Below are positions 34,607 to 48,685 of a stretch of DNA of 64,000 nucleotides, in pieces. The stretch spans positions 1,240,001-1,304,000 of the forward strand of contig NZ_CP127221.1 in the NCBI RefSeq assembly GCF_030284385.1. Direction: 5' to 3'. The notes beneath the pieces were generated by a model that did no database searches, was not told the DNA's origin, and saw nothing but the letters and a program-made list of their open reading frames with translations. Position numbers and translations under genes: made by a program. The first letter of the stretch is position 1. Each line of letters begins with the position of its first letter. This DNA is from Altererythrobacter rubellus. Lineage in GTDB: Bacteria > Pseudomonadota > Alphaproteobacteria > Sphingomonadales > Sphingomonadaceae.

Positions 34607-35527
34607 TTAAAGAAGAGCGTCTTCGAAGTCACCTTCATACAGACCAATCAATGCGCGATCATCGTGATCCCACGGGTGGAAGCCCGGCTTGAAGTAAGCC
34701 AGCCACGCCGGGAAAATGCGGCGCACAACGCCTGGTGACCATGCCAGATACTTGAATAGGCCCCAGCGCGCCTTCCAGCCGGTAATGCCGTCCTGCGCCA
34801 GCAGGTTCATCGTGTCTTCCCAGCGGTTCTTGAAGAAGCGGCCCGTGACGATCAGCATCATCAGGCTGCGCACTTTCCAGCGGCGGAACGGCGTCCAGTC
34901 GCGAGTGGCGTGGTTCCAGGTGTCATAGGCGACGCCCTTGTGCTCGATTTCCTCGGCCGCATGCCAGCGCCACATATTGCGAACTTCGGGGTCAGCTTTG
35001 TCGAAATGCTTTAGATTCTTCAGGAATTCGCTCGCCATCATAGCGGTGTAGTGTTCCAGAGCCATGGTCGCGGCGAGATTGAGGATCTCTGGCCGGCCTT
35101 TGGTCAGGTTGAGCATTTCCTCAACGCGCTTGTCGATTGCTTTGATGTCGTAACCATGATCTTCGGCGAGGCGGTTGAACGCGATGTGTTCGCGGGTGTG
35201 GTTGATTTCCTGCTTCACGAAAGCGCGGATCTCCGCCGCGAGCTTGGGCGGGGCGCCATCGCGATGCGCCTTGACCGCTTCGATGAAGAAAGCCTCACCG
35301 CGCGGGAAAGTGGCTGACAGGGCATTGTGCCAGGCTGTGCCGAACGGTTCGCCCGCCCACCACCGATTGGGTGTGGTGTTGCGATTAAAGTGTTCGTCAC
35401 GAACCGTGATTTCGAGATCGGCCGGTGTTGGATCTTTAGCGCTGCGGCGGTTTGCGGCTGCTGCGGTTTCAAGATCAATCTTGGCAGGGGCGTTCACTGG
35501 GCACTCCATGATTTGGGTTACTGACAT
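34607..35527 (-). CDS. PF10118 predicted metal-dependent hydrolase, paralogue 1
   Basis: A 306-residue soluble protein of the family Pfam calls Metal_hydrol. Conserved acidic/His groups lie on predicted helices: RGEAFFIEAVKAHRD, VKQEINHTREHIAFNRL (ExxxHxxEH), MALEHYTAMM and WRWHAAEEIEHKGVAYD. This E, ExxH-like pattern recalls ferritin-like di-iron carboxylate sites, an inference. The ATG at 35509 (MECPVN) is an alternative start. It is monocistronic, with a TGACA-N4-TGTCA dyad upstream and a bidirectional terminator downstream. A clear paralogue lies at 41299-42216; the two flank the TBDR/DUF3604/TetR genes. Confidence 0.9.
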   Translation of the reverse strand: MSVTQIMECPVNAPAKIDLETAAAANRRSAKDPTPADLEITVRDEHFNRNTTPNRWWAGEPFGTAWHNALSATFPRGEAFFIEAVKAHRDGAPPKLAAEIRAFVKQEINHTREHIAFNRLAEDHGYDIKAIDKRVEEMLNLTKGRPEILNLAATMALEHYTAMMASEFLKNLKHFDKADPEVRNMWRWHAAEEIEHKGVAYDTWNHATRDWTPFRRWKVRSLMMLIVTGRFFKNRWEDTMNLLAQDGITGWKARWGLFKYLAWSPGVVRRIFPAWLAYFKPGFHPWDHDDRALIGLYEGDFEDALL

Positions 35528-35546
35528 GATTGTAAGTAGACCGTAC

Positions 35547-35560
35547 TGACATCTGTGTCA
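35547..35560 (-). promoter_or_regulatory. Operator-like dyad upstream of PF10118 paralogue 1
   Basis: TGACATCTGTGTCA is a perfect TGACA-N4-TGTCA inverted repeat, 20 bases before the PF10118 start codon. It has the size of TetR-type operators. Two TetR genes lie to the right (40403, 42248); which, if either, binds is unknown. Confidence 0.45.
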
Positions 35561-35596
35561 ATAGCGAGCAGGGTGCGTTGGTGTGTTGTCGAAACA

Positions 35597-35830
35597 ATGC
35601 TGCCTTGTGAAGTGATACGCTCTACAGCCCCCGCAACACGACCAATCGAAGGGTATAGAATCGTGCTTGTTGCCATTGTCATTGCTTCTGCTGCACTCAT
35701 GCTGTTTTTCGTGGTCGTCGCGATTGCGGGGAATCGGGCGCATGACCGACAACAAGTCGATCTGGAAAGGCGTCGTTCGGAGCAGGCGCAATCTGCCCGC
35801 GGCAACACGACACGAGCGAGCGACGACTGA
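35597..35830 (+). CDS. Possible small membrane protein
   Basis: A 77-residue frame with one strong membrane helix (YRIVLVAIVIASAALMLFFVVVAIAG) followed by a highly charged tail (HDRQQVDLERRRSEQAQ). The stop is followed by a 250-base stretch without genes. No family recognised, no obvious SD. The helix plus charged tail makes it more gene-like than random frames nearby, but expression is unproven. Confidence 0.35.
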   Translation: MLPCEVIRSTAPATRPIEGYRIVLVAIVIASAALMLFFVVVAIAGNRAHDRQQVDLERRRSEQAQSARGNTTRASDD

Positions 35831-36081
35831 GGCGAAAGCACGTTCCAATCCAACAGGATGGAACACTTGGAACACTGTCCTAAGAGAGAAACTCTCCTTG
35901 GGGAGAGGGGCGCTATTGCGAGCGGCTTGCAAGATGGATTGAGCCAAGATCATGCGCGCTTTTGAGCCAGATTTTCAGTGAGTAGGAAAGGGAGTTTTTT
36001 GTCCGCTACTGGAAAGCGCTTTCAGCCTCGCCTAGGTCATGAATTGGGGTGGAAAGCGGACATCTTTGCGAGCAGTAACAC
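35831..36081. other. Non-coding stretch downstream of TBDR gene
   Basis: No convincing reading frame on either strand. AT content is slightly higher than in the flanks by eye. It ends at the TBDR terminator. With the neighbouring dyad this is a plausible left boundary of the TBDR/DUF3604/TetR insertion. Confidence 0.35.
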
Positions 36082-36108
36082 AAAAATGGGCCGCCAAGCG
36101 GCGGCCCA
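36082..36108 (-). terminator. Rho-independent terminator of the TonB-dependent receptor gene
   Basis: TGGGCCGCC and GGCGGCCCA form a perfect 9-bp stem with a 4-base loop; on the minus strand TTTTT follows (36086-36082). Another small hairpin (GGTCTC/GAGACC, 36115-36135) lies between it and the receptor stop. Confidence 0.9.
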
Positions 36109-36150
36109 AGGATTGGTCTCGAGAGCGTTGAGACCCCATTCTAGAGAAGT

Positions 36151-38400
36151 TTAGAATTCGAAACCCAGGGCTACACCGTATTGGCGCGGTGGAATGCCAG
36201 TGCCGAAGGTAAACAGACCCGCGACAGGCAGCGCTGAAGACAGCCCGGTATCGTCTGTAAGGTTGCGACCAAAGACGCGCGCATAGATGCGTGAATCTTC
36301 ACCCGTATAAAACGTGTAGGTGATCGCTGCCGACAGATCCGATGTCGCAGGGTGCAGACCCCTCGGATCGTTTGCGCCGAAATTGCCCGGAGCCGCCACG
36401 ATTGTCGTCTGATAGGAACTCAATGTGCGGAAGCTGACATTGAAGTCGAGTTCGCTGTTGTCCGAGACAGGCACTTCATAGTTGGCGGCAACCGAGAATG
36501 TGACATCAGGCGCGCGGCGAAGCTGGCGTGTCGATGCATCTTCGCCCGGGTCCTGATTGCCGTCTAGATTGAGATCTATGAAGAAGTTCTCGTAATCCGC
36601 ATCGAGCAAGCCCAGCGACGCGGTCAGCGAGAAACCTTCGAACAGGTTCGCGCGCATGTCGACCTCGAGACCCTTGATCTCGGCGCTCGCGGCGTTGAGC
36701 GTCACCGTCTCCTGCGGGTTAGCCGATCCCGGCGGGGTCGCCTGGACCACATCCTCCTGTTTGTCGTCATACTTCGAAAGGAACGCTGCGAAGTTTAGGA
36801 TAAGATCGCCGCCGAGGAAGGAATTCTTCAGACCAACTTCGAAGGAATCGACCGTTTCGGGTCCGAAGGCAGTCGCCACCGCCGAAGGGCTGTTCGCACG
36901 GCCATTCAGGCCGCCGGCGCGGTATCCTCTCGCATAGGACCCGTAGACGAGCGTGTCGTCGGAGATGTCGAAATCGAGACTGACGCGCGGGGTGAACTCC
37001 TCAAAGCTGACTGCGTTGCTGAATTGCACACCCGGAGCGAGAATGCGGGTGAACTCCTTATCGTCCCAAGAATAGCGCGCGCCCGCGCTAAGCCGCAGGC
37101 GATCGGTCAGGTCCAGATCGAAGTCGGCAAACAGCGCGAAAGATTCCACTTCGTGATCGGTGAAGGGATTGACCTGCGCACCGCCGGGAAGGGTCGTCGT
37201 CTGGTCAAGCTGGTATTCGTTCTCGAAGTAGAACAGTCCGACCACACCGCTTAAGCCTTCGTTGAACTCGCCGCTGAGGCGCAGTTCCTGGCTGAATTGG
37301 CGATAGTCTTGAACGCGATCAGTCTGAAAGAACGGGATCGATGTCCCGTCGAAGTCCTGCACCACGCGCTCGTCCGAGTCCCGCAAGGCAGTGATCGAAG
37401 TCACCCTGAGATCACCGATGTCCCAATTGATCTGAGCCGACAGCGCCGTCTCTTCAAAATCGATCGAGCCGAGCTCATTAGCAAAGACGGTGTACAGGTC
37501 TTCGTCGAGATTGCGATTGCACTGTTCGGGGATAAGGTTGAACGTGTTGGGCGGCACAGGGTTCGGATTTGCGAAAAGCACGCACAGCACATCGGTGCTC
37601 GCCGACAGCGACGACACTGCCGGATCCCCGCCGATCTCGGAATACTCCGCCGTGAGCAGCAGTTCCAAGGCCGGTGTAGGTTCTATGAGGACGGTGGCGC
37701 CGATATTGGTGTTGGAGTTTGCTCCGGCGTCGACGCCCAGCGTGACGTTGTCATAGAAACCGTCAAACTCGCGATCATAACCAAAGAGCTTGAGGCCGAA
37801 GACGTCGCCGTCGCCGACATTAAGCACGCCGTTAAGCTCGCGCCTGCCAAAATTGCCGAATGTCACTTCGCCGCGTGCACCGAATTCCTTGGTAGGGCGC
37901 GATCGCTGGACATTGATGACGCCGCCGATCGTATTTCTGCCGAAAAGGGTTCCCTGCGGCCCGCGCAGGACTTCGACCTGCTCGAAATCGAATGCATTGG
38001 TCAGTTGCGCCGTGTTGGTCCCGATGAAGACACCGTCAATGACCACGCCGACCGTGGGCTCGAAGGATTTTTCAATGTCCTCAAAACTCACACCACGCAG
38101 CGAAATTGCGCCGCCGCCGGGGCCTGCGCCGACGGGGTCGATCACTAGGTTGGGCGAGAGGCCCTCAACATCCTCGATCGTGAGCGCCCCTTGCGCTGCA
38201 AGCTGTTCCGGGCTGACGACCGTGACGGCAAGCGGCACGTCCTGCACCGCCTCGTCCCCGCGAAGACGCCCGGTGACGATAATCACGTTGTCGTCTTCGT
38301 CCGCCGAAGCTTCTTCGTTTTGCTGGGCAAAAGCTGCTTGGCTTCCAAGAACGCCGGTCAACAGCGTTCCGGTAAGCAGACCAATCCTGAATGTATTCAT
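36151..38400 (-). CDS. TonB-dependent outer-membrane receptor
   Basis: A 749-residue TBDR. Signal peptide MNTFRIGLLTGTLLTGVLGS then QAAFA-QQ; TonB-box-like VIIVTG near residue 40; plug domain QDVPLAVTVVSPEQLAAQGALT to RGPQGTLFGRNTIGGVINV; then a 22-strand barrel ending in YGVALGFEF with terminal Phe. It is of the sphingomonad type often linked to uptake of plant, aromatic or lipid-like compounds; the ligand cannot be read from sequence. It is divergent from the DUF3604 lipoprotein gene (140 bases apart) and has its own terminator. Probably energised by TonB-ExbBD from elsewhere. Confidence 0.95.
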   Translation of the reverse strand: MNTFRIGLLTGTLLTGVLGSQAAFAQQNEEASADEDDNVIIVTGRLRGDEAVQDVPLAVTVVSPEQLAAQGALTIEDVEGLSPNLVIDPVGAGPGGGAISLRGVSFEDIEKSFEPTVGVVIDGVFIGTNTAQLTNAFDFEQVEVLRGPQGTLFGRNTIGGVINVQRSRPTKEFGARGEVTFGNFGRRELNGVLNVGDGDVFGLKLFGYDREFDGFYDNVTLGVDAGANSNTNIGATVLIEPTPALELLLTAEYSEIGGDPAVSSLSASTDVLCVLFANPNPVPPNTFNLIPEQCNRNLDEDLYTVFANELGSIDFEETALSAQINWDIGDLRVTSITALRDSDERVVQDFDGTSIPFFQTDRVQDYRQFSQELRLSGEFNEGLSGVVGLFYFENEYQLDQTTTLPGGAQVNPFTDHEVESFALFADFDLDLTDRLRLSAGARYSWDDKEFTRILAPGVQFSNAVSFEEFTPRVSLDFDISDDTLVYGSYARGYRAGGLNGRANSPSAVATAFGPETVDSFEVGLKNSFLGGDLILNFAAFLSKYDDKQEDVVQATPPGSANPQETVTLNAASAEIKGLEVDMRANLFEGFSLTASLGLLDADYENFFIDLNLDGNQDPGEDASTRQLRRAPDVTFSVAANYEVPVSDNSELDFNVSFRTLSSYQTTIVAAPGNFGANDPRGLHPATSDLSAAITYTFYTGEDSRIYARVFGRNLTDDTGLSSALPVAGLFTFGTGIPPRQYGVALGFEF

Positions 38401-38540
38401 GTTCCCTCCCCTTACCTCACCAATTTAGCCGATTGGCCTATTGGCGGTATTATGTTTATGAACCTGAGATTATATTCGCAGAGGAACGTGCACTATCGTC
38501 AAAAGTGTGAGCGCTCGGGACTCTTCGTAGGGGGTAGGGA
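38401..38540. promoter_or_regulatory. Divergent promoter region TBDR/DUF3604
   Basis: It contains CCAAT-N7-ATTGG (38420-38436) and a further ATTGG at 38440-38444, giving overlapping dyad and direct repeats (GATTGGCCTATTGGCGG). This is a reasonable operator for the TetR regulator encoded after the DUF3604 gene. The DUF3604 ATG has a GGGGGTAGGGA SD. Confidence 0.4.
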
Positions 38541-40370
38541 ATGCAGGCAAGCAGAAAAAAGGGTGTCATGTGGCGACAGGCGGCATCTTCTTGCGTGCTT
38601 GCTCCAGTGATCCTTGCTGGATGCTCGGCAATGCGCGAAGCGCCGGTGGCAGAATCCAATGAAACTCCCACGACTGTTGTCTTGAGCGAGTATCCCGAGC
38701 AGGTGCTTTGGGGAGACCTGCACGTCCACACGAACCTCTCGTTCGACAGCAACAGTCTGGGCAACGAGCGGCTTGGCCCCGAAGACGCATACAGGTTCGC
38801 CATGGGCGAAACGGTGATGGCCTCCAGCGGGCATCCTGCAGCACTGGCCAGACCACTCGATTTTCTCATGGTCGCCGATCATGCCGAATATCTCGGAGTC
38901 CTCTCCTCCGTTCGCGAAGGCGATCCCGCGCTATTGGAAACCCCGCTGGGCGAACGTTGGAGTGGTTTTCTCTCAGGCGAGAGCGGCATTGGCGCTGTCC
39001 TGAGCGATTACGTTGCCATGGTCACTCGCGAAAAACCCATGGATCTTCCCGGTGATGACCATCAACGAACGATCTGGTCTGACCTCATCGACACAGCAGA
39101 GCGATACAATCGTCCAGGCGAGTTCACCACGCTTGCGGGATATGAGTGGACCTCGATGCCGGGCGGTCGCAATCTCCACCGGGTGGTCGTCTTTCGTGAA
39201 GGACCGGACAAGACCAGACAGATTCTTCCCTTCTCTGCTCTCCAGAGTGATGATCCCGAGGATTTGTGGGACTACATGGGCAATTTCGAACGCCGAACGG
39301 GCGGGCAGGTGCTCGCCATTGCCCATAACGGCAATCTTTCCGGCGGTCTGATGTTCGATGATACGACGCTGGATGGTGGCTCTTTGACCGCGGACTATGC
39401 TCAGCGTCGGCAAAGATGGGAGCCGGTCTACGAAGTCACGCAGGTAAAGGGCGATGGAGAAGCACACCCCTTGCTTTCGCCCGACGATCGCTTTGCCGAT
39501 TTCGAGACCTGGTACGAAACCGACATCTCCATGCGCCCACGAAGCGACAACCCGGAAGATGCGCGCCGCAGCCTTGCGGGCGAATATGCCCGGAGCGGTC
39601 TGAAGAAGGGGCTGCGATATGGAGCGAGACTAGGCGTTAACCCATATGAATTCGGTTTCATCGGATCGACCGATTCCCACACCGCCCTTGCCACGGCAGA
39701 CGATGACAATTTCTGGGGGAAGTTCCTCGATTCCGAGCCGACCGAAGAGCGTCTCGGCAGCCAGATGGGTGGGAATCTTTGGGCCAATGCGGGCCTGTCT
39801 GCCTCGGGCTATACGGCGGTATGGGCGCGGGCCAATACGCGCGAGGAGATCTTCGACGCGCTCAAACGGCGCGAGGTTTACGCGACGACTGGACCCCGCA
39901 TACGCTTGAGACTCTTTGCAGGGTGGGACTTTGAGGAAACCGACCTGTCGCGCGACGATTTCGCGCCCTTCGGATATTTTGCAGGCGTGCCGATGGGCGG
40001 GGTCCTCGAAGCGGCCAAACTCCGACAGACTCCACGTCTCTTGGTGCGCGTACTGAAGGATCCCGACGGTGCGATGCTCGAACGTGTGCAGGTCATCAAG
40101 GGGTGGCTGGATGCAAGCGGAGTGCTGCATGAAAAGGTGTTCGATCTGGACGAACCCAGCATCAACGGACTCCCCTATTTCAACGTTTTCTGGCGTGATC
40201 GGAATTTTGAACCGGATCAACATTCCTTCTACTATATCCGCGTGCTTCAGGTGCCGACCAAGAGGTGGAGCACTTACGATGCCGAGCGCTACGGATTGGA
40301 GCTGCCTGACGGGATTCCCCGGATGATCCAGGAGCGGGCCTACAGCTCCCCCATATGGTATCGACCATGA
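38541..40370 (+). CDS. DUF3604 (PHP-like) lipoprotein
   Basis: A 609-residue protein with a lipoprotein signal (VLAPVILAGCS, lipobox LAGC, Cys28), so anchored in the outer membrane or periplasmic leaflet. The DUF3604 domain has PHP-type metal motifs: WGDLHVHTNLSFD (57-69; HxH), DFLMVADHAEYLG, TTLAGYEWTSMPGG, VLAIAHNGNLSGG and FIGSTDSHTALA with Asp/His ligands. A metal-dependent hydrolase, probably phosphoesterase-like, is inferred; no DUF3604 substrate can be assigned here. It is divergent from the TBDR and followed after 32 bases by a TetR gene, so a joint role in uptake and processing is likely. Confidence 0.9.
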   Translation: MQASRKKGVMWRQAASSCVLAPVILAGCSAMREAPVAESNETPTTVVLSEYPEQVLWGDLHVHTNLSFDSNSLGNERLGPEDAYRFAMGETVMASSGHPAALARPLDFLMVADHAEYLGVLSSVREGDPALLETPLGERWSGFLSGESGIGAVLSDYVAMVTREKPMDLPGDDHQRTIWSDLIDTAERYNRPGEFTTLAGYEWTSMPGGRNLHRVVVFREGPDKTRQILPFSALQSDDPEDLWDYMGNFERRTGGQVLAIAHNGNLSGGLMFDDTTLDGGSLTADYAQRRQRWEPVYEVTQVKGDGEAHPLLSPDDRFADFETWYETDISMRPRSDNPEDARRSLAGEYARSGLKKGLRYGARLGVNPYEFGFIGSTDSHTALATADDDNFWGKFLDSEPTEERLGSQMGGNLWANAGLSASGYTAVWARANTREEIFDALKRREVYATTGPRIRLRLFAGWDFEETDLSRDDFAPFGYFAGVPMGGVLEAAKLRQTPRLLVRVLKDPDGAMLERVQVIKGWLDASGVLHEKVFDLDEPSINGLPYFNVFWRDRNFEPDQHSFYYIRVLQVPTKRWSTYDAERYGLELPDGIPRMIQERAYSSPIWYRP

Positions 40371-40402
40371 TCGTCAGCTTGTCCTGGAGAAGGAACTGAG
40401 AC

Positions 40403-41056
40403 TTGCAGGATACGCTGCCAAAATCTCGACACGTCGGAAGCAAAGTGAAGCGCGGCCGCCCACCCGGTTCAAGCGCGGAGGCGACCCGTCAAAGACTCTT
40501 GCTTGCAGCAGCGAGGTACTTCAGCTCAGCCGAGTATTCGGAAGTCAGCTTGCAAGACATCGCGGCGGAATGCGGGATTACCGGTGCCGCAATCTACAAC
40601 CACTTTTCCTCAAAGGAAGAATTGTTCGCGTCAGTCGCCGAACACATGATGAAGGTGAACGGAAAGGCGATTCAACAGGCGATTGCTGACCACACCGAAT
40701 GGCGATCCATGTTGCGAGCCGTCCTGAGGCTCATTTGCAAGGACACCACGGGATGGTTCCGTTTCACTTTGCTGGTTCCGGCAGTCCAGCTAAAGATGAT
40801 GCAGAAGCCCGAGAAGTTCGCTTCGCTTCTCACGCTGAGAGCGGTCTATGTCGATTGCTTCAGGCAAATCGTTGATTGCGCAGTAGCTGCCGGGGATTTG
40901 CCGCAAGCCACCTCGAAAGCCGCCGCCGCTGAGCTCCTGCTCGCCTTCACTTTCAATGGGCTGGGGGCTGTCATTGCACATCGGACGAGTGATGAGGAAG
41001 TCGCCGAACTTGTCCATCATGCGGCCATTCTCTTGGGCTTTGCGAAGCAGGCCTGA
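40403..41056 (+). CDS. TetR/AcrR family regulator 1
   Basis: A 217-residue repressor-type protein. The HTH is in VSLQDIAAECGITGAAIYNHFSSKEELFASVAEH (residues about 47-80); the C-terminal ligand domain is not recognisable. TTG at 40403 has AAGGA at good distance; GTG at 40445 (KVKRGRPPG context) is an alternative. The N-terminus is basic (KVKRGRPPGSS). It is co-directional with DUF3604 and likely controls that gene and the divergent TBDR in response to their substrate. Confidence 0.88.
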   Translation: MQDTLPKSRHVGSKVKRGRPPGSSAEATRQRLLLAAARYFSSAEYSEVSLQDIAAECGITGAAIYNHFSSKEELFASVAEHMMKVNGKAIQQAIADHTEWRSMLRAVLRLICKDTTGWFRFTLLVPAVQLKMMQKPEKFASLLTLRAVYVDCFRQIVDCAVAAGDLPQATSKAAAAELLLAFTFNGLGAVIAHRTSDEEVAELVHHAAILLGFAKQA

Positions 41057-41298
41057 AGATTGCTTGCTGCGGATCGAAGTGGAACGCTGACATAGGAATA
41101 GCCTCAGCCTCAAGTTTCGTTAGCGTACGGCCCGTGCTTCTACCGTGTCCGTGAAGTTAAACGAGCCTCAAGAGAAAAAGACCAATGTCCGCTATCGAGT
41201 CATTTGAAATGATGCCCAAACGGCCGAAGTTGGGGCGCAAACCTGCCGAAGAGGCGAACGGCAGGTATTGGGTCGTTAGCGGAAGTGCAGCTTTCGGC
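41057..41298. other. Gap between TetR 1 and PF10118 paralogue 2
   Basis: There is no convincing gene. An 8-bp perfect inverted repeat, ACCTGCCG/CGGCAGGT with a 10-base loop (41241-41266), lies just downstream of the PF10118 stop, but without a U-run on either strand. A short frame from ATG 41185 runs into the antisense of PF10118 and is not credible. Confidence 0.35.
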
Positions 41299-42216
41299 TC
41301 ACTCTGCCGGCATCACCGCATCGGCATAGGGGCTTTCCGTTTTGCCGATCAGCGTGCGGTCATCATGGTCCCATGGGTGGAAGCGCGGCGTCAGGATTGC
41401 TGCCCATTCGACGAACATCCGGCGCATCATGCCCGGCTTCCACCACAGGAAGGCATAGAGCTTGCGCTTCGCCTGTTTGTGGGTGAAGCCGTCCTGCTCC
41501 AGCAGGCCGATGGCATCGCGGATGCGGTTGCCGAAGTACTTCTTCGTGATCAACGCTGCAACCAGTGCGCGGGTCTTGTAGCGTTTCCACGCGCTCCAAT
41601 CGCGGGTCGCGTGCAACCATACGTCGTAGACCAGGCCCTTATGCTCGATCTCTTCGGTTGCGTGCCAGCGCCAGATATCGGCAGCGACCGGGTCGGCGCC
41701 CTCAAGATAGCGCGGATCGGAAAGCAGATGCCGGCTGATGATCGCCGCGAAATGTTCCAGCGTGATAGTGATCGCGAGGTTGAATTCCTTGGGGCGACCC
41801 TCGGTCAGTTCCAGCATCGCACGGATGCCCTGCTCGATGCTTTCGACATTATAGCCGTGATCTGAAACCAACCGGTTGAATGCGACATGCTCGCGTGTGT
41901 GATTGATTTCCTGTGTAGTAAATGCCTTGATCTCGCGCGCCAGCTTGGGCGGCAGATCTTCGCGGAAATCGCGCAAGGTTTCGATGAAGAAGGCCTCGCC
42001 GCGCGGCAGGCTGGCTGAAACAGAGTTGTACCAGGCCGTCGCCACCGGATCATTCGAATGCCAATGGCGCGGGACCATTGCCTTGCGGTCAAACCGCCGG
42101 TCACGCACGATCAACTCATGCTCAGACGGGGTCGCGCTTCCGCGGGCGGTGATGGGTTCATCGCTGCTCTTGCTGGTTACATCAGAGCGCTCTAGATCGT
42201 TGATTTGGTCGGTCAT
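41299..42216 (-). CDS. PF10118 predicted metal-dependent hydrolase, paralogue 2
   Basis: A 305-residue protein clearly paralogous to 34607-35527: PRGEAFFIETLRDFREDLPPK, TTQEINHTREHVAFNRL, TLEHFAAII and RWHATEEIEHKGLVYD align without gaps, and the C-terminal FHPWDHDDRTLIG is identical in plan. The same set of Glu/His residues is kept, so activity is probably retained in both. The start ATG is divergent from a TetR gene 31 bases away, a typical self-regulated pair. The substrate is unknown. Two copies in 8 kb suggest duplication followed by insertion or divergence of the genes between. Confidence 0.9.
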   Translation of the reverse strand: MTDQINDLERSDVTSKSSDEPITARGSATPSEHELIVRDRRFDRKAMVPRHWHSNDPVATAWYNSVSASLPRGEAFFIETLRDFREDLPPKLAREIKAFTTQEINHTREHVAFNRLVSDHGYNVESIEQGIRAMLELTEGRPKEFNLAITITLEHFAAIISRHLLSDPRYLEGADPVAADIWRWHATEEIEHKGLVYDVWLHATRDWSAWKRYKTRALVAALITKKYFGNRIRDAIGLLEQDGFTHKQAKRKLYAFLWWKPGMMRRMFVEWAAILTPRFHPWDHDDRTLIGKTESPYADAVMPAE

Positions 42217-42247: not shown

Positions 42248-42847
42248 ATGACAAGTCGCAAACGGTTAACACCCGAAGAATCAAGATGTTCCGCTCTCGA
42301 GGCAGCGCGGGCTTTACTTATTGAAACAGGGCCTCAGTCAGTCACTCTGAAGGCGGTTTCGGCACGTATTGGGCGGACGCATGCAAACTTGCTGCACCAT
42401 TTTGGGTCAGCTTCTGGACTGCAAAAGGAGCTTGCGCGCCACCTGGCAGAGACTGTTTGCGAGACGATCAAGGAAGCGGTCACTGCGCATCGAGCTGGGC
42501 TTGGTAGCCCGCGCGAGGTGGTCGACCTGGCTTTCGATGCTTTCGATAAAGAGGGAGCCGGGGCGCTGGCCAGTTGGATGATCCTGACCGGCGATGAGGA
42601 TGCATTGAGTCCGATTGTAGAGACGATCCACCAGCTGGTGGACGAGATCGCGCCAGAAGAGGTGGATCATGACGGCAATGCGACCAGTTTTCATGTCGAA
42701 ACGCTTGCGTTGGTGCTGATGGCCATGGGGGATGCACTGATCGGGTCGGCACTCGCGAAATCGCTTGGCCTTCCAGAAACAGCGGCGCGTGATCGCGCTC
42801 AATTAATGCTTGAACGCTCACTTGGACCGATCAACCAACAGGCTTGA
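42248..42847 (+). CDS. TetR/AcrR family regulator 2
   Basis: A 199-residue TetR-type regulator. The HTH is VTLKAVSARIGRTHANLLHHFGSASGLQKELARHL (residues about 29-62). The C-terminal domain (VVDLAFDAFDKEGAGALASWMILTG) resembles a TetR subgroup found next to fatty-acid or PF10118 genes. It is divergent from PF10118 paralogue 2, which it probably controls. Its 3' end overlaps the convergent ygfZ by 17 bases, so antisense effects are possible. Confidence 0.88.
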   Translation: MTSRKRLTPEESRCSALEAARALLIETGPQSVTLKAVSARIGRTHANLLHHFGSASGLQKELARHLAETVCETIKEAVTAHRAGLGSPREVVDLAFDAFDKEGAGALASWMILTGDEDALSPIVETIHQLVDEIAPEEVDHDGNATSFHVETLALVLMAMGDALIGSALAKSLGLPETAARDRAQLMLERSLGPINQQA

Positions 42848-47269: not shown

Positions 47270-48685
47270 TTATTTCTCGATCAGACCAATGCTGATGGTT
47301 GCACGCGGTTGCTTCATTTCAGTGCTGGCAACCGGATATGCGCAATAATCTGCTGCGTAATAGGCAGCGGGGCGGTGATTACCCGACAGGCCGATTCCGC
47401 CAAAGGGAGCAGCCGATGAAGCGCCATTGGTCGGGCGGTTCCAGTTGATGATGCCAGCCCGGACGTTTGCCCAGAAACGGTCATAATCTTGCGGCCTACC
47501 GCCGACCAGCGAAGCAGACAGGCCAAAGCGCGTGTTGTTCGCCTCTGCAATGGCCGCATCGAAATCCTTCACCCGGATAACTTGCAAAATCGGACCGAAC
47601 AGTTCGACATCGGGCCGATCTTCGATCTCTGTTGTGTCGATAATGCTTGGCGTCAGGAACGGCTTGGTTTCGTCCGGACGACGCAAATGCTGGATAGGTT
47701 TTCCGCCCAGGCCAATCAGATGGACATAGCTTTGCATCAGCTTGTCAGCGGTGTCATTGTCGATCACCGGGCCGAAATAAGGCGACGGCTCAGCGAAAGG
47801 CTCATCGACAATCAGCCGTTTGGTCAGCTTGAGCAGATCTTCCATCAGCGGCTCGTACATGCTTTCCAGCACGACCAGGCGCCGCGCGGCCGTGCAGCGT
47901 TGGCCGGCGGTTGTAAACGCGGATTGTGCAATCAGAACGGCTGCGTCCTCGAGCAGCGGCGTATCGATTGCCACAATCGGATTATTCCCGCCCATTTCCA
48001 GCGCAACTATCTTGCCGGGATTTGTCGCGAGGGTCCGGTTGATCGCGATCCCGGCTTGCACAGACCCGGTGAACAGCACGCCGTCGACGCCAGGGTGGCT
48101 GACCATGGCTTTGCCTTCTTCGACCCCACCGATCACGATTTGGATGGCATCTTCGGGAATACCGGCTTGGTGGAAGCAATCGACCAGAAATACGCCCACA
48201 GCGGGGGTTTTCTCGCTTGGCTTGAACACGATCGTGTTGCCCGCGATCAAAGCTGGCACAATATGTCCGTTCGGCAGGTGCGCCGGGAAATTGTAGGGCC
48301 CGAGAACAACCATCACCCCGTGCGGCTTGTGGCGCACGGCAGCGGTGCCCTGAAGTGCGCTATCGAGCTTTTTCTTGCCCGTCCGCTCAGCATAGGCGTT
48401 GACGGAGATTTCGACCTTGTTGATCACCGCATCGACTTCTGTCCGGGCTTCCCACAAGGGCTTGCCCGTTTCGCGCGCGATCAGTTCGGCAAATTCGTCG
48501 GCACGCTTGCGCACCTGATTGGCAAACCGGCGTACCAGCTCGATACGTTTGGTTAGCGATTGGCCAGCCCATGCAGGCCAGGCGCCGCGCGCGGCGGCAA
48601 CCGCTGCGTCAACGTCAGTCGCTTCGCCGCGCCACAGTTCTTCACCAGTGGCCGGCTCATAGGAAATGAATGTGTTGTCGCTCAC
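47270..48685 (-). CDS. astD: N-succinylglutamate 5-semialdehyde dehydrogenase
   Basis: NAD-dependent aldehyde dehydrogenase (471 residues) of the arginine succinyltransferase pathway: succinylglutamate semialdehyde to succinylglutamate. VVLGPYNFPAHLPNGHIVPAL is the AstD-type substrate-side motif, LEMGGNNPIV the Glu loop, TTAGQRCTAARRLVV has the catalytic Cys, and NRPTNGASSAAPFGGIGLSGNHRPAAYYAADYC is a strong AstD signature. astA, astB, astC and astE are not in the window. The gene stands alone between the glycine-zipper gene and selO. Confidence 0.93.
   Translation of the reverse strand: MSDNTFISYEPATGEELWRGEATDVDAAVAAARGAWPAWAGQSLTKRIELVRRFANQVRKRADEFAELIARETGKPLWEARTEVDAVINKVEISVNAYAERTGKKKLDSALQGTAAVRHKPHGVMVVLGPYNFPAHLPNGHIVPALIAGNTIVFKPSEKTPAVGVFLVDCFHQAGIPEDAIQIVIGGVEEGKAMVSHPGVDGVLFTGSVQAGIAINRTLATNPGKIVALEMGGNNPIVAIDTPLLEDAAVLIAQSAFTTAGQRCTAARRLVVLESMYEPLMEDLLKLTKRLIVDEPFAEPSPYFGPVIDNDTADKLMQSYVHLIGLGGKPIQHLRRPDETKPFLTPSIIDTTEIEDRPDVELFGPILQVIRVKDFDAAIAEANNTRFGLSASLVGGRPQDYDRFWANVRAGIINWNRPTNGASSAAPFGGIGLSGNHRPAAYYAADYCAYPVASTEMKQPRATISIGLIEK

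Follow-up and report, generated by a model that had tools for sequence, protein, structure and literature searches.

A three-gene cassette, probably for the capture and cleavage of an organic compound, has been identified in a 64,000-nucleotide stretch of DNA (hereafter the window) from Altererythrobacter rubellus, a sphingomonad of marine type with a genome that is a single contig of 2.3 Mb. The cassette consists of a gene for a TonB-dependent receptor (TBDR; 36151-38400, minus strand), a divergent gene for a DUF3604 lipoprotein of 609 amino acids (38541-40370, plus strand) and, co-directional with the latter and separated from it by 32 bp, a gene for a TetR-family regulator with a TTG start (40403-41056, plus strand). 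It is probably a transferable unit that takes up and hydrolyses a bulky organic nutrient and is held under TetR repression. The most economical reading of the locus would combine a receptor, a surface or periplasmic hydrolase and a TetR regulator, because the three genes are a conserved, co-inherited unit and the predicted hydrolase is lipid-anchored and carries a PHP-type metal site.

Linkage and mobility of the cassette

An earlier sequence-only reading of this DNA had set out the same three genes, and re-examination returned them at the same coordinates and on the same strands, together with the PHP-type motifs (DLHVHT, IAHNGN and STDSH) and the lipobox (VILAGC-S) that it had noted in the DUF3604 protein. 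Each family assignment is backed by Pfam. The receptor has a signal peptide, a TonB box, a plug (PF07715, E 8.7e-18) and a beta-barrel (PF00593, E 2.6e-41), both domains scoring over the Pfam cut-off; the DUF3604 product matches PF12228 (E 4.8e-208, 692.8 bits, gathering score 20.4), and the regulator matches TetR_N (PF00440, E 4.2e-14, 52.5 bits, cut-off 24).

The linkage of the three genes, which had been proposed from the window by itself, recurs elsewhere. Open reading frame (ORF) comparison across the genomes of 150 relatives, with 53 further DUF3604 loci added by a contig scan, found the order TBDR (divergent)-DUF3604-TetR at 15 distinct loci in the Sphingomonadales, namely the window, L055-L065, L097, L038 and L039; at an additional locus (L101) that is truncated by a contig end, the DUF3604-TetR pair is retained. 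The hosts include Erythrobacter, Altererythrobacter, Sphingopyxis, Sphingorhabdus and other Sphingomonadaceae, and the closest cassette relatives of the A. rubellus genome belong to the Erythrobacteraceae. Clustering of the surrounding ORFs showed exactly three families to be common to all contexts, with flanks held in common only within L057/L064/L065/L097 and within L058/L061, leaving about 11 unrelated contexts. Some form of DUF3604 was found in 61 of the 150 genomes (mostly paralogues of ~40-50% identity) and the cassette in six. Five of the 150 (that of A. rubellus included) encode a TBDR orthologue with 69% identity or more, and all five are cassette carriers; the receptor of the sixth carrier (G067) is 36% identical. 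The cassette DUF3604 proteins form one clade (15 rows, SH-aLRT 99), the nearest outgroup of which comprises proteins from Halieaceae and Pseudomonadales; L055, which was marked 'other' in this tree owing to a spurious overlapping TetR ORF start, is a cassette. Compared with L039, the cassettes of L063 and L038 show 75% identity in the DUF3604 protein but only 35% in the TBDR, which is 69% identical to that of the window, and only 38% in the TetR protein; the simplest reading of these values is that the receptor, and perhaps also the regulator, has been swapped inside the cassette.

In the window, the cassette is carried on a 5.7-kb insertion (35573-41295), delimited by alignment with eight relatives that are without it, which lies between the genes for two PF10118 paralogues (34607-35527 and 41299-42216). 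The surroundings are collinear in all eight from moaA to an aldehyde dehydrogenase gene (47270-48685) at ~66-83% DNA identity, the cassette is absent from the site and the alignment stops at 35572 and 41296. Four of these relatives have ~60-110 bp between both PF10118 genes. Other DNA has also been found in this gap (~2.7 kb in L144 and ~1.1 kb in L145), and because different relatives hold different DNA there, the gap may be an insertion hot spot. In Altererythrobacter xiamenensis (genome G075, L036/L056) the cassette is found elsewhere, and the PF10118 site is empty of it. Together, these comparisons indicate that the cassette moves horizontally as a block between unrelated genomic places.

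Several smaller features accompany the insertion. An intrinsic terminator with a 9-bp stem and T run (36087-36108, minus strand) lies 3' of the TBDR gene and was the top match of a terminator scan that gave 11 matches where 5.6 were expected. At the left end of the insertion there is a small ORF (35655-35830, plus strand) for a peptide with one transmembrane segment (IVLVAIVIASAALMLFFVVVAIAGNRAHD...). Two palindrome-like sites, TTACTGACATGATTGTAAGTA and TACTGACATCTGTGTCAATAG, are found at 35518-35562, upstream of the PF10118 gene at 34607-35527; similar pairs occur between the PF10118 genes of L145, L146, L151 and, in part, L147, and the sites are probably operators of the neighbouring TetR gene at 42248-42847.

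The DUF3604 lipoprotein

An AlphaFold2 model of the DUF3604 protein, built from a 34-sequence alignment (pLDDT 90.2), divides into a PHP-fold domain (residues ~53-452) and a C-terminal Ig/FN3-like domain (residues 454-609). VIA-align put PHP structures first, with scores well over those of unrelated rows (3e38, Z 15.7 over 235 residues; 2anu, 15.1; endonuclease Q, 12.7; PsfC, 12.3), whereas Foldseek by itself placed them low. The match of residues 454-609 to Ig/FN3-like domains (Z 6-7) reflects a common arrangement only, and a search of PDB sequences with the protein gave no detectable match to any solved structure. Metal ligands of PHP proteins usually follow the pattern HxH, D, DH, E, H, H, D-x-H. 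The residues that showed no variation among 76 homologues wherever these could be aligned, namely H61, H63 and D69 of the first motif (HVHTNLSFD, encoded at 38721-38747, plus strand) along with D113, H114, E202, H213, H262, D378 and H380, fit this pattern and constitute a predicted metal site.

A lipobox was found in 15/15 cassette DUF3604 proteins vs 14/61 others, counts that are drawn from related sequences and hence are not independent. Residue +2 of the cassette lipoboxes is Q, S, G or A, and never D. The Lol +2 sorting rule is established in enterobacteria, and by this rule the lipoprotein is probably anchored in the outer membrane.

The layout of the cassette is distinct, because other DUF3604 genes are most commonly partnered by genes for a foldase of the PpiC type and for a HupE/UreJ protein (22-23 loci). 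This DUF3604-PpiC-HupE/UreJ module is very common (L042, L045, L047, L049, L051-L054, L076-L080, L098-L100 and others), and on Ruegeria plasmids (L152, L154) it is accompanied by ExbB, ExbD, TonB and a sulfatase. Two further arrangements have been observed. L044 (5422-18774) holds in a row a TBDR, two tandem DUF3604 genes, a flavin monooxygenase, an MFS transporter, an alpha/beta hydrolase, a GST and an acyl-CoA ligase, possibly a catabolic operon from which the substrate of a DUF3604 protein might be learned; in L043 (7325-17602), the third DUF3604 gene of the genome stands with those for a flavin monooxygenase, an amidohydrolase, a prolyl oligopeptidase and a lycopene cyclase. A literature search over 5.4 million papers found none on DUF3604 function and a single passing mention, its annotation in Chlamydia trachomatis (PMC11925237), although subscription papers lay outside this coverage and a description may exist elsewhere.

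Regulation, ligand and alternative readings

The sequence-only reading had proposed that CCAAT-N7-ATTGG (38420-38436) and a second ATTGG (38440-38444) form the operator in the divergent gap. Both are present, and the exact CCAAT-N7-ATTGG pattern is rare (0.05 expected per window). An operator role is nonetheless rejected, because the repeats are absent from all 14 other cassette gaps and the best dyad of the window's own gap is no better than that of shuffles (p ~0.5), whereas two other blocks of the gap are conserved. What stands of the earlier uptake-and-hydrolysis proposal is the conserved unit and its lipid-anchored PHP hydrolase, without the operator.

Block A (38455-38475) is an AT-rich, dyad-like element that was found at the same relative place on alignment of the cassette gaps; it contains the best gap dyad in L055, L056, L058, L062, L063 and L039 (p 0.05-0.11 each), though not in the window, and is a candidate TetR operator. 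Block B (38493-38511; CTATCGTCAAAAGTGTGAG in the window and ATCATCAAAACTGACAG in the others) is the most conserved element of the gap, with a summed identity of 86, where none of 100 shuffle sets exceeded 75 (52 vs at most 48 when fewer, more distant sequences were used), and is a candidate regulatory site or promoter element. No second copy of block B was found in the A. rubellus genome at up to 2 mismatches. A genome-wide block B regulon is rejected, as the degenerate pattern matches relatives broadly off the cassettes, in the manner of any weak pattern. A scan of the divergent gap with the sigma-70 consensus found no promoter. The cassette TetR was aligned with 15 other cassette TetRs. Given the conserved blocks, it is plausible that TetR controls both the TBDR and the DUF3604 gene, and its operator is more likely to lie within block A or B than at the CCAAT/ATTGG repeats.

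The TonB box of the receptor is IIVT at residues 40-43, of which V42 is invariant in 14 receptors. Relatives of the receptor at 32-44% identity adjoin genes for RPE65 oxygenases, enoyl-CoA hydratases, an acyl-CoA ligase, an acyl-CoA dehydrogenase, PQQ dehydrogenases and SDRs, the RPE65-type genes being directly next to the receptor gene in L158 (5476-13043, twice), L160 (623-4504) and L066/L090. Because these distant relatives adjoin RPE65 and acyl-CoA genes, there is a slight hint that the ligand is less likely to be an iron chelate than a hydrophobic, aromatic or isoprenoid compound. RPE65 is ruled out as a partner of the cassette itself: the six cassette genomes have 1-3 RPE65 genes each, none adjoining the cassette. 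The only RPE65-type gene of A. rubellus (G000:C1:1237145-1238572) is situated just left of the window, ~40 kb from the cassette.

In the proposed mechanism, the TBDR, energized by TonB, would bind and import a scarce organic ligand that porins cannot admit because of its size or hydrophobicity. The DUF3604 lipoprotein, by means of a metal centre of the PHP type with two or three ions, would hydrolyse a bond in this ligand, which might be a phosphoester, carboxylic ester, lactone or carbamate. TetR would repress both divergent transcripts through the conserved sites of the 140-bp gap, and either the ligand or the product of its cleavage would relieve this repression. More speculatively, the unit could be a self-contained cassette of a previously undescribed kind, in which the DUF3604 protein, as an outer-membrane lipoprotein, is the direct cutting partner of a dedicated TBDR and thereby a catalytic counterpart of SusD, and in which the receptor is exchangeable and the hydrolase is kept.

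Several observations weigh against this mechanism. The RPE65 neighbours belong to receptor relatives of 32-44% identity and not to the cassette receptor, and block A of the window itself is a poor palindrome. The occurrence of a window-type TBDR with an L039-type DUF3604 in L063 and L038 means that the pairing of receptor and hydrolase is not strict. There is no inner-membrane transporter or catabolic enzyme in the cassette, so that the steps after cleavage fall to the host. Finally, many other DUF3604 proteins sit with PpiC and HupE and not with a TBDR, and may have a general role in the envelope.

Among the alternatives, the one that survives best, though unlikely, is iron or metal acquisition, in which the TBDR would import a metallophore and the DUF3604 protein would hydrolyse it to free the metal, in the manner of a periplasmic siderophore esterase. 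Indeed the receptor is in general siderophore-receptor-like, its best PDB match being FyuA (4epa), and other DUF3604 genes are found with those for membrane proteins of the HupE/UreJ type or, in the case of Ruegeria, near TonB/ExbB/ExbD genes and genes for FecR-domain proteins. However, siderophore receptors are merely the commonest solved TBDRs in the PDB; the receptor scores 130.7 bits against the siderophore-receptor profile TIGR01783, well below the cut-off of 223.5; the regulator is a TetR and not a Fur protein; and the cassette is without siderophore, reductase or ABC genes. Slightly less probable still is detoxification or signal quenching, whereby TetR would sense a lipophilic antibiotic or signal that the hydrolase destroys, with the TBDR serving for uptake of the fragments or as the route of entry. 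The patchy and transferable distribution of the cassette (six of the 150 genomes), the closeness of its TetR to sensors of the ScbR/MtrR/AcrR type and the faint match of its hydrolase to CehA/McbA-type metallohydrolases, which cleave carbamates (profile NF038032, 18.8 bits over one stretch vs a cut-off of 80), are in keeping with such a role; against it, a conserved high-affinity importer would be an odd partner, and the cassette has no efflux pump. It is improbable that the DUF3604 protein acts on the envelope of its own cell by trimming lipids or glycans there, the receptor and regulator being linked to it for other reasons: the wide distribution of DUF3604, its frequent association with the PpiC-type foldase and HupE and its annotation in C. 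trachomatis would suit envelope maintenance, but the cassette proteins form a separate clade without PpiC/HupE, and the cassette is missing from most relatives and was inserted as a unit. A chance neighbourhood is hardly credible even though all three families are individually common, since the 20 TBDRs of A. rubellus put chance adjacency at an estimated ~2% per gene and since the same order and orientation, with a conserved divergent gap, recur at the 15 loci in ~11 contexts.

Comparison with known systems

Read as an uptake-and-hydrolysis unit, the cassette is related in its parts to several known systems. Within the TBDR superfamily, one close parallel is DdvT of Sphingobium SYK-6 (ddvR-ddvT-ligX locus), a TBDR for a lignin-derived aromatic dimer in which IIVT at residues 40-43 is a functional, experimentally tested TonB box (PMC6874591). 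The two have in common a sphingomonad TBDR with this box, a local regulator and, on the proposed reading of the cassette, an organic nutrient; the DdvT locus differs in that it has a MarR regulator, cytosolic catabolic genes and an inner-membrane transporter, and no PHP lipoprotein has been described there. The gene for EdcT, a TBDR for estrogen in the edc cluster of Novosphingobium tardaugens (PMC7793797), also belongs to a divergent arrangement that includes a TetR gene, and its ligand is hydrophobic, as that of the cassette may be; the edc cluster, however, comprises large catabolic operons, and no DUF protein is mentioned in that paper. In two Halieaceae loci (L066, L090), a TBDR gene is divergent from a DUF3604 gene of the sister clade; these have no TetR and instead have an enoyl-CoA hydratase, RPE65, SDRs, a sulfatase and a histidine kinase.

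For the hydrolase, homologous DUF3604 proteins (~40-50% identity) with the same invariant metal ligands occur in rhizobia, roseobacters and other sphingomonads as part of DUF3604-PpiC-HupE modules, but these have no dedicated divergent TBDR and TetR, mostly lack a lipobox and fall outside the cassette clade. The solved PHP enzymes BVU_3505 (3e38, which is two-domain like the cassette protein), TM0559 (2anu), PsfC (7rty) and the Cv1693 type (2yb1) share the fold and the H/D/E pattern; unlike them, the cassette DUF3604 is an exported lipoprotein with large insertions and no sequence match. Its faint likeness to the CehA/McbA carbamate hydrolases does not make it a member of that family.

In sphingomonads, loci that combine a TBDR for an organic ligand with a local repressor were thus already known from DdvT and EdcT; what is new is DUF3604 as the partner and the transferable three-gene format. 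DUF3604 is widespread in Pseudomonadota and apparently uncharacterized, and the cassette provides a natural handle on its function: because the unit has its own receptor and regulator, the TetR inducer and the TBDR ligand would expose the DUF3604 substrate. The cassette also indicates that specialized outer-membrane nutrient uptake can travel as a unit of three genes.

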